Source: Mucilaginibacter sp.
GTDB lineage: Bacteria; Bacteroidota; Bacteroidia; Sphingobacteriales; Sphingobacteriaceae
Length of the DNA stretch: 64,000 bases
Assembly (NCBI GenBank): GCA_030445275.1
Contig: JAUCSE010000053.1
Coordinates: 1 to 64,000, forward strand
Reading direction: 5' to 3'
Shown: piece after piece, positions 60,922-64,000 of the stretch
How the letters are laid out: each line of letters begins with the position of its first letter
How positions within the stretch are numbered: position 1 is the stretch's first letter
Made by a program: the position numbers and the translations under genes
Notes under the pieces: model-generated
Told to the model about the DNA's origin: nothing
Seen by the model: the letters and a program-made list of their open reading frames with translations, nothing else
Database searches by the model: none

Positions 60922-61389
60922 ATGAAAAAGATCGTCAAATTCAGCATGTTGTTGTGCCTTATATTTTATGGCTGCAAAAAGGATCCGGTTCCAGCAGAGG
61001 ATATACAAAAGGAAATGCTTGCCGCTGTTAATGCTTTAAGGACTACCGGCTGCACCTGCGGTACGACCAATATGCCTCCGGTGCCCGCTGTTATATGGAA
61101 CGATAAGCTCCAGGTCGCGGCGGCGGCGCACGCAAAAGATATGGTTGTTAACAATTACTTTGATCATATCGCTCCCGATGGCTCATCGCCTATCCAAAGA
61201 GCTCAGGAGGCCGGTTACACAGGTATGTATATTGGTGAAAATATTGGCAGCGGTTATAATAATATTCAACAGGTAATAGATGCCTGGAAAAAAAGCGAAG
61301 ATCATTGTAAGGCCATGATGGATAGTTTATATATAGAATTGGGAGCTGCGCGGTACAATACGGTTTGGGTTCAGGACTTCGGGAAATAA
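60922..61389 (+). CDS. CAP (SCP/PR-1) domain lipoprotein
   Basis: Lipobox 'CLIFYGCKKD'; 'VIWNDKLQVAAAAHAKDMVVNNYFDHIAPDGSSPIQRAQEAGYTGMYIGENIGSGY'. Confidence 0.9.
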   Translation: MKKIVKFSMLLCLIFYGCKKDPVPAEDIQKEMLAAVNALRTTGCTCGTTNMPPVPAVIWNDKLQVAAAAHAKDMVVNNYFDHIAPDGSSPIQRAQEAGYTGMYIGENIGSGYNNIQQVIDAWKKSEDHCKAMMDSLYIELGAARYNTVWVQDFGK

Positions 61390-61579: not shown

Positions 61580-62329
61580 ATGAAAAAAGTATTCTTATGC
61601 TCTATTGTAGCACTGGTTATGGCATCATGTCAAAAAGAAGCCAAAACCCCTGCCCCTGTTTCTGCTAACGCGGAGGTAAAGGCTAACTGGTCGTCATCTG
61701 CCCAATATGCCTCGTGGAATGCCGGCAGCGGTTATTATATTGAAAACAATATCTGGGGAAGCGGCGCCGGCCCGCAAACCGTTTGGGCAAACACTTACAG
61801 CAACTGGGGTGTATGGGCCGACCATCCCAATACCAGCGGAGTAAAATCATACCCAAATGTAGATTACCCGGTTAACAGAACATTCAGTACCCTTAATACG
61901 GTTTCCAGCAGCTTTAACGTAACAGTGCCCAGCAGCGGTTCGTACGAAAGCACCTATGATATATGGTGCAATAACTACGCTTATGAAATTATGATATGGG
62001 AAAACTGGAAGGGTACCGTAAATCCAATCGCGGTCGGCTATAATGCCAATGGCAGTGCTATAGCAAGTTACACTAATGTAACACCAACTTCCGGAGGACC
62101 AACTTATACCGTGTATAAGGGTTCAAACGGATCAAATGTGGTATACTCGTTTCTGGACAACAGCCAAAAAACATCCGGAACAGTTAACATCAAGGATATC
62201 CTGAATTTTATACAGAGTAAGGGCGTAACCTTTACGACATTGGATAAGGTCCAATTCGGATTTGAGATCACTTCCTCGTCCGGTGGGCTTAATTTTGGGT
62301 CAAACAGTTATTCGGCGACCGTAAACTAA
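61580..62329 (+). CDS. GH12-like (endoglucanase/xyloglucanase-type) lipoprotein
   Basis: Lipobox 'VALVMASCQKE'; 'YYIENNIWGSGAGPQTVWANTYSNWGVWADHP...VKSYPNVDYP...YDIWCNNYAYEIMIWENW...FGFEITSSSGGLNFGSNSY'. Confidence 0.75.
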   Translation: MKKVFLCSIVALVMASCQKEAKTPAPVSANAEVKANWSSSAQYASWNAGSGYYIENNIWGSGAGPQTVWANTYSNWGVWADHPNTSGVKSYPNVDYPVNRTFSTLNTVSSSFNVTVPSSGSYESTYDIWCNNYAYEIMIWENWKGTVNPIAVGYNANGSAIASYTNVTPTSGGPTYTVYKGSNGSNVVYSFLDNSQKTSGTVNIKDILNFIQSKGVTFTTLDKVQFGFEITSSSGGLNFGSNSYSATVN

Positions 62330-62385: not shown

Positions 62386-62783
62386 ACAAAAAATAGATAT
62401 CAAGATAAAAGTTCCGGTATTGGTCGGAGTTGGAATTATGTCAATCAGATGCACTATTGAATCGCAATCAGCAGGTGTAATAATCAATAAGAAAAGCACA
62501 AAAGACGCATTTGCGATATATAATTATATGAAAAAACAAGTTATCAAATCCAATTCATCATTTTTACCTTCAATTAACCATATATTATCATACTTTTTTC
62601 TTATAATTTATACATATTTTCCATAATTGACATAATTCTTATGCTTTATATATAAAAACCTAAAAAATAAAAGCATTTACCTAAGTATAAAATATATTAT
62701 TCCTAAAAATATATGAAAATACGTATATATTTTGTGTTTAGAACACCTCCCGTATATCTTTATAATTCACTTAACCCAATTTT

Positions 62784-62990
62784 ATGTCACAGGTAAATTT
62801 CAAATTAAGAGCTGTTAAAGTAGGGAAAACTTTGGCAGCATTTGCTCTGGCAATTTTAGTAGCTCAGGGGGTAATGATGGTTACCGCCGATGAGGCCCAA
62901 GCTGACGGAACCTGCTTTTCTTCATCAAACATTTGTGGCTTAAACGGCCATAACTACAGCAATCGTACCTATCAGGCTCCGCCTAATTAA
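62784..62990 (+). CDS. small secreted two-Cys peptide, copy 1
   Basis: 68 aa; hydrophobic signal sequence with ADEAQA|D cleavage-like motif, mature DGTCFSSSNICGLNGHNYSNRTYQAPPN. Confidence 0.8.
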   Translation: MSQVNFKLRAVKVGKTLAAFALAILVAQGVMMVTADEAQADGTCFSSSNICGLNGHNYSNRTYQAPPN

Positions 62991-63008
62991 TTCAGGGTTT
63001 ATTGCTAA

Positions 63009-63063
63009 ATCATTAGCCTTGACGAAAATCACCCATTTAAATGATTTAGCTAAGGCTAATGAT
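63009..63063 (+). repeat. inverted repeat downstream of peptide gene copy 1
   Basis: ATCATTAGCCTT (63009-63020) / AAGGCTAATGAT (63052-63063), inner AAATCA/TGATTT stem. Confidence 0.75.
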
Positions 63064-63127
63064 CTTACCGCCTGCAATCAGGCATAACTCGTCTCCTATA
63101 TTTTTATAACTCACTTAACCCAATTTT

Positions 63128-63337
63128 ATGTCACAGGTAAATTTCAAATTAAAAGCTGTTAAAGTAGGGAAAACTTTGGCAGCATTTGCTCTGGCAATTT
63201 TAGTAGCACAAGGTGTAATGATGGTCACAGCCGACGAAGCTCAGGCTGATGGAACCTGTTTTAATTCATCAAACATCTGTGGCTTAAACGGCCATAACTA
63301 CAGCAATCATACTTTTCAAGGCCCTCCGCCTAATTAA
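63128..63337 (+). CDS. small secreted two-Cys peptide, copy 2
   Basis: 69 aa, tandem paralogue of copy 1 (344 bp period): mature DGTCFNSSNICGLNGHNYSNHTFQGPPPN. Confidence 0.8.
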   Translation: MSQVNFKLKAVKVGKTLAAFALAILVAQGVMMVTADEAQADGTCFNSSNICGLNGHNYSNHTFQGPPPN

Positions 63338-63358
63338 TTCAAGGGGTTTTATTACGAA

Positions 63359-63413
63359 ATCATTAGTCTTGACAATAATCATTCGTTTAAATGATTGAGT
63401 TAAGGCTAATGAT
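63359..63413 (+). repeat. inverted repeat downstream of peptide gene copy 2
   Basis: ATCATTAGTCTT (63359-63370) / AAGGCTAATGAT (63402-63413), one G-U-compatible change, inner AATCATT/AATGATT stem, then CTTTTAA. Confidence 0.75.
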
Positions 63414-63456
63414 CTTTTAATCTACGATCAACTTTACATATTTATCTTAATCCCCT

Positions 63457-64000
63457 ATGTGTTTTTTCTTCACCAAGAAGTGCTTGATATTCTATTTCTC
63501 TTTTTTTTCCTTTCTTCAGGTATATAGCCAGGAAAAGGGGTTAACAATGCTCCATAACCAAGTTGTGGATTCGACAACACATACCGCCATTCCGTACGCA
63601 ACCATAACCTTAATAGGCAAATCCAATCAGCCTAAAAAAGTGATTATTGGCCAAAAGGATGGTTTCTTTAAGATTTCAGCTCCTGATACTGCCTATATAG
63701 GGGTAAACGTCACTTGTAGTGGTTATGTATCAAGATATCTTGCCATCTCCTATTTTGATGATCTTCAAAACAGGCAAAACCCTATTCTACTACAGCAAAA
63801 AATCAATCAATTAAAGGAGATAAATATCATATCGGCAAAACCGATCATAAAAAGAGAAATTGATCGGATCTCCTATAATGTTCAAGCGGATCCGGAAAAA
63901 AACATCATCTCTGTAGGCGATATCTTACAAAAAATGCCATTGGTGTCCAGCGATGGCTCCAGTTTATTGGTTAAAGGAAGTACAAGCTATAAAATTTTCA
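63457..64000 (+). CDS. outer-membrane beta-barrel / TonB-receptor-like protein, N-terminal part, truncated by the window edge
   Basis: Own translation from ATG 63457: MCFFFTKKCLIFYFSFFSFLQVYSQEKGLTMLHNQVVDSTTHTAIPYATITLIGKSNQPKK...LKEINIISAKPIIKREIDRISYNVQADPEKNIISVGDILQKMPLVSSDGSSLLVKGSTSYKIF; carboxypeptidase-D-like domain then plug-like segment. Not in the ORF track. Confidence 0.8.
   Translation, partial: MCFFFTKKCLIFYFSFFSFLQVYSQEKGLTMLHNQVVDSTTHTAIPYATITLIGKSNQPKKVIIGQKDGFFKISAPDTAYIGVNVTCSGYVSRYLAISYFDDLQNRQNPILLQQKINQLKEINIISAKPIIKREIDRISYNVQADPEKNIISVGDILQKMPLVSSDGSSLLVKGSTSYKIF

Follow-up and report, generated by a model that had tools for sequence, protein, structure and literature searches.

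Near the right-hand end of the window, that is, the whole 64,000-nucleotide stretch of Mucilaginibacter sp. contig JAUCSE010000053.1 analyzed here, two short open reading frames lie in tandem ahead of an outer-membrane barrel gene that runs past the window's edge, and extending the contig rightwards reveals two further genes. The features of the locus are the following:

62744..62783, + strand: duplicated 5′ flank of copy 1, identical to 63088-63127 at 34/40 positions
62784..62990, + strand: peptide gene copy 1, 68 aa; leader to A40 (AQA↓D), mature part 28 aa DGTCFSSSNICGLNGHNYSNRTYQAPPN
63009..63064, + strand: predicted RNA hairpin 3′ of copy 1 (fold of 62991-63080, z = -3.3)
63128..63337, + strand: peptide gene copy 2, 69 aa; mature part 29 aa DGTCFNSSNICGLNGHNYSNHTFQGPPPN
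63358..63414, + strand: predicted RNA hairpin between copy 2 and the barrel gene (fold of 63338-63425, z = -4.7)
63457..64000, continuing to contig position 65814, + strand: outer-membrane barrel gene, 785 aa; CarboxypepD_reg-like domain, plug region, OMP_b-brl_3
contig 65818-66378, past the window: CxxC protein, 186 aa; N-terminal membrane helix, DGSCSTC
contig 66375-67448, past the window: propeller lipoprotein-like protein, 357 aa

Two peptide genes and three downstream partners

The initial annotation had described tandem ORFs of 68 and 69 aa at a 344-bp period, and both were located on the plus strand with exactly this start-to-start spacing. Codon alignment of the two copies also returned the substitution count given there, namely 14 synonymous and 5 non-synonymous changes and one inserted Pro codon (CCT), next to 49 identical codons. 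By the Nei-Gojobori method these differences correspond to a dS of 0.43 and a dN of 0.039, a ratio of 0.09 that is to be read as approximate since the copies may be partly homogenized, and the synonymous excess (binomial p = 2e-6) bears out the claim of coding ORFs under purifying selection. The synonymous differences are unevenly spread, almost all of them falling in codons 27-45 and 61-65: codons 1-26 hold none over 18.8 synonymous sites, together with a single non-synonymous change, and codons 27-45 hold 11 over 12.3 synonymous sites. Besides selection, partial homogenization of the copies is therefore likely, and recombination may be its cause. The 5′ flanks, which had been called near-identical, indeed match at 28/30 positions and then at 34/40, reaching background level by about 50 bp. 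In the flank of copy 1, a TATAAT-like hexamer ends at position 62766; promoter-like sites show no excess over the shuffled expectation.

Read by eye, each precursor begins with a Lys-containing n-region followed by a hydrophobic stretch (L17-V33) and A-Q-A↓D, so the leader of both peptides appears signal-peptide-like, with a putative cut after AQA. Two details of the initial annotation needed correction: the only two cysteines of each peptide, C44 and C51, are spaced C-x6-C and not C-x5-C, and the mature parts past AQA↓D measure 28 and 29 aa, not about 27-28. The peptide had been left without a named family, in agreement with Pfam and NCBIfam scans, which gave no match over cut-off.

The barrel gene expected 3′ of the peptides is real. 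Its 785-aa product matches OMP_b-brl_3 (PF14905) with E = 1.2e-66 and 225.9 bits, against a cut-off of 27, and carries an N-terminal CarboxypepD_reg-like domain; its plug region has a homologue in a barrel at locus L126 that is 40% identical to the present one and matches Pfam Plug. An exporter, protease or immunity gene, as proposed for the stretch after the receptor, is not present there on the extended contig; instead, we found a CxxC thioredoxin-fold protein and a beta-propeller lipoprotein, the stop of the former gene overlapping the start of the latter. The 186-aa CxxC protein has no significant Pfam match, and its relatives give weak matches to ResA/StoA or Redoxin. The CxxC motif does not vary among 11 aligned partners, 2 further ones also have it, and the AlphaFold model (pLDDT 85) finds its best PDB matches among DsbE/ResA-type thiol-disulfide proteins (E 6e-6), so that structure model, fold search and alignment together give the protein the thioredoxin fold and CxxC of a thiol-disulfide oxidoreductase. 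Like the ResA/DsbE (TlpA-like) oxidoreductases, it is modelled in this fold and keeps the CxxC; it differs in being only about 10-17% identical to the best PDB matches and in that its substrate here would be a peptide. For the 357-aa protein, the model (pLDDT 83) is a propeller, with matches to propellers of the NHL, G-beta and other kinds. Against the Pfam family TolB_like, a 6-blade propeller family, the protein reaches 0.007, under the cut-off, and its Pedobacter orthologue (below) reaches 2e-11.

Rarity of the peptide and recurrence of its partners

Among 100 genomes of the same genus we found no convincing peptide match; the weak ones, with internal stops and long overlapping frames, were judged to be chance. 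When 401 genomes of the family were searched by profile, one relative emerged, in Pedobacter kyungheensis KACC 16221 (L044/L096), where a single peptide gene is followed, as in Mucilaginibacter, by the barrel, the CxxC protein and the propeller in turn, with identities of 38% for the barrel, 31% for the CxxC protein and 30% for the propeller. A homologue beside a similar receptor in another genome, the test set beforehand for the initial annotation, was thus found once. Given this clear homologue in the same operon of a second genus, the tandem pair is not a product of chance. Leader and linker of the Pedobacter peptide have diverged and the core ICGLNGHNY is identical, which suggests that the mature part is probably the functional one. 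The Pedobacter locus also has, in the equivalent place, a predicted perfect 17-bp hairpin with a T tract (z = -5.9), unrelated in sequence to the Mucilaginibacter hairpin; an Rfam search gave no match.

To judge from sequence scans, the core is very rare: across about 85,000 species genomes, the motif CG[LIVMF]NGHN[YF] occurs in 16 stretches, of which only that of Pedobacter kyungheensis is an exported peptide, bearing in mind that such a scan sees peptides with the core and misses more divergent, core-less relatives. Scanning genome contigs with the peptide itself, its own genome left out, yielded no relative that passed, and plasmid and viral collections yielded no match. The G+C content of the cassette (34-37%, against a regional mean of 43%), together with its absence from the sampled congeners, suggests horizontal gain, with a low-G+C organism, for instance a relative of Pedobacter, as the donor.

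We then considered the partners. The barrel belongs to a populous family, with relatives at E ≤ 1e-100 in 177/251 genomes, and a filter search detected a same-strand, signal-like two-Cys ORF directly upstream in 0/28 of its close relatives elsewhere. The barrel was thus recruited from a large family of paralogues, and its use as a predictor of peptides was ruled out. The propeller behaves differently: its profile, searched against 401 genomes of the order, led to ten further loci, most of which encode a short exported peptide with at least two cysteines beside a propeller and a CxxC protein. Some of these loci add GLPGLI proteins and barrels of 766-935 aa, an S26-like signal peptidase or an O-antigen ligase-like protein, and weaker matches of the CxxC search led to two NVEALA loci (L046 and L047) with the same partners. 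A short exported two-Cys ORF lies directly upstream of 15/21 propeller genes (labelled by hand, some in NVEALA clusters without a profile check) as against 9/198 other genes (p = 9e-13), under a location-blind filter for a short ORF, a hydrophobic leader and two Cys; three of the nine positive other genes are themselves cassette members. Across this wider set, then, the short peptides keep closer company with the propeller and the CxxC protein than with the barrel, and four cassettes (L046, L047, L120 and L127) have no barrel nearby. Hence the dedicated outer-membrane partner originally proposed is supported in part: the barrel is joined to the peptide in two genera, and on its own it is no marker of a peptide receptor.

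Several of the further loci have peculiarities of their own. The peptides of L122 and L128 are also duplicated in tandem, and at the propeller locus L121 no peptide was seen. L122 carries RND/HlyD genes downstream where others have the barrel (L122:1381-8946: two tandem peptides, then DUF1573, HlyD-type and AcrB-type RND genes), possibly an alternative exporter. An S26 signal peptidase I-like gene follows the CxxC gene at L120:8644-9333 (by Pfam) and, by eye, at L126:5479-6150 and L128:5562-6146; in these three clusters, whose peptides are of a C-x7-C...GNIY type, it may encode a dedicated peptide-processing enzyme. O-antigen ligase-like (Wzy_C) proteins end clusters L120 (9337-11178) and L124 (11282-13117), a hint of glycan transfer near the peptides.

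How does the Mucilaginibacter peptide relate to these families? Neither copy matches NVEALA (PF14055) at E ≤ 1, profile comparison gives a probability of 0.8%, and PF14055 has no match in the Mucilaginibacter genome itself. The usual company of NVEALA, a TolB_like (PF15869) propeller lipoprotein and a thioredoxin-like lipoprotein, which is no part of the Pfam definition, is found at contig 65818-67448. NVEALA peptides resemble ours in being short and exported, with an Ala-rich cleavage-like motif (EALA↓D, compared with EAQA↓D here), in usually having at least two cysteines and in adjoining the propeller and a CxxC thioredoxin-like lipoprotein; here, by contrast, the barrel gene stands between peptide and propeller, and the ICGLNGHNY core is unique to the present family. 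The C-x7-C...GNIY peptides of L120, L126 and L128 likewise share two cysteines, a G-x-x-Y past the second Cys and the propeller and CxxC partners, and differ in their core and in the S26-like gene, which the Mucilaginibacter locus lacks. Profile comparison relates the GNIY-type peptides to NVEALA (pairwise E 2.7e-5) and detects no relation of the present peptide to either, so it is on account of its gene order and partners that the peptide is counted as part of the cassette. On these grounds, it would be a new and rare family that fills the peptide position of a cassette recurring in Bacteroidota.

The known parts are OMP_b-brl_3, TolB_like, the thioredoxin fold and NVEALA as the nearest peptide slot, and NVEALA-type peptides with propeller neighbours occur in Bacteroides and in sampled relatives. 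The cassette kind itself appears functionally undescribed in the open literature: across the full text of 5.4 million open papers none names NVEALA or PF15869, the five hits for PF14055 are malaria-parasite papers and one enzyme-profile methods paper, and open sources gave nothing on the function of GLPGLI, NVEALA, the propeller, Bacteroidota secreted peptides or such cassettes.

Candidate roles for the peptide

The reading we favour, at slightly less than even confidence, takes the two ORFs to encode duplicate precursors of a small exported peptide, which a four-part cassette would handle as its substrate. The leader would direct Sec export of the precursor, which would be cut after AQA. The membrane-anchored CxxC protein, whose fold and motif come from the computations above, would then make or control a C44-C51 disulfide, and the propeller lipoprotein might hold or present the peptide. 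The OMP_b-brl_3 barrel would move it across the outer membrane, most likely outward, and the predicted hairpin between the peptide and barrel genes could result in much more peptide than transporter. The peptide itself would be a new sequence family in the slot that short Cys peptides, NVEALA among them, occupy elsewhere. In support we count the gene order shared by two genera, the dN/dS of roughly 0.09, the identical core beside diverged leaders, the invariant CxxC, the two predicted folds, the two-Cys ORFs ahead of propeller genes, the tandem peptides of L122 and L128 and the hairpins in both genera; against it count the restriction of the peptide family to two genomes, its missing profile similarity to NVEALA and GNIY peptides, the cassettes without a nearby barrel, the RND/HlyD genes of L122 and the propeller locus L121 with no peptide seen. 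In addition, the better known relatives of such OMP_b-brl_3 barrels are usually importers, a point against outward transport.

It is tempting to extend this to a broader proposal, which we regard as speculative and somewhat doubtful: a modular Bacteroidota peptide-export system of CxxC thioredoxin, propeller lipoprotein and barrel might mature and release disulfide-closed mini-peptides of many unrelated sequences for cell-to-cell signalling or antagonism, the tandem pair being one of its rarer peptide families. The compact four-gene version with its invariant nine-residue core would offer a tractable model for the peptide's role, for disulfide closure by the CxxC protein and for transport by the barrel.

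Among the alternatives, we consider it rather unlikely that the peptide serves an envelope complex as a permanent small subunit, sitting on the beta-propeller or plugging the barrel, with the CxxC protein as a MauD-like maturation factor. The analogy is to the mau system, where MauD serves the small subunit of the propeller-type methylamine dehydrogenase: a small Cys-rich subunit, a propeller subunit and a dedicated thioredoxin-like factor recur here, likened by logic and not by sequence, and the peptide is far shorter. Peptide genes that directly adjoin propeller genes, and three of the sampled NVEALA-type clusters that show no nearby barrel (L046, L047 and L127), would fit such an arrangement. 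Mature parts that measure 28-29 aa in the present pair and are very diverse between cassettes are, however, unlike an enzyme subunit, and tandem copies with a hairpin suggest an excess of peptide over its partners.

The direction of transport might also be reversed, the peptide being secreted as a signal, or as a carrier for a metal or nutrient, and then taken back up by the plug-containing TonB-type barrel. The CarboxypepD_reg-like domain and the plug region are consistent with this, and the conserved Cys, His, Asn and Tyr of the core could bind a ligand. Yet the cassette genes include no regulator, sensor or sigma/anti-sigma pair and no metal-related partner, and the close barrel relatives come without a peptide, making this scenario unlikely. 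An antibacterial, bacteriocin-like role is improbable: a rare, patchy distribution and the low G+C, both suggestive of horizontal gain, speak for it, as does a weak likeness of the L122 peptide to NCBIfam 'fulvocin C-related' (E 0.005, under cut-off), but the three downstream cassette genes include no immunity gene or ABC exporter, Pfam and NCBIfam give the peptide no bacteriocin family match, and selection is strongly purifying and not diversifying. Finally, a reduced Kazal-like protease inhibitor is highly improbable, for the weak Kazal_2 matches in all three peptides (PF07648, E 0.04-0.13, 14 bits against a cut-off of 22.8) and the C-x7-C-x6-Y spacing of the Pedobacter peptide are set against two cysteines where Kazal spacing has at least four, so that the Kazal disulfides cannot form.

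The cassette also has neighbours on both sides. Just upstream of the peptides lies a lipoprotein with a glycosyl hydrolase family 12 domain (window 61580-62329; PF01670, 2.1e-10), and a small lipoprotein at window 60922-61389 looks CAP/SCP-domain-like by eye. Right after the cassette, DnaE-like polymerase, Y-family-like and RecA-like genes (contig 68297-73710; L002:6297-11710) resemble, again by eye, an imuA-imuB-dnaE2 mutagenesis cassette.
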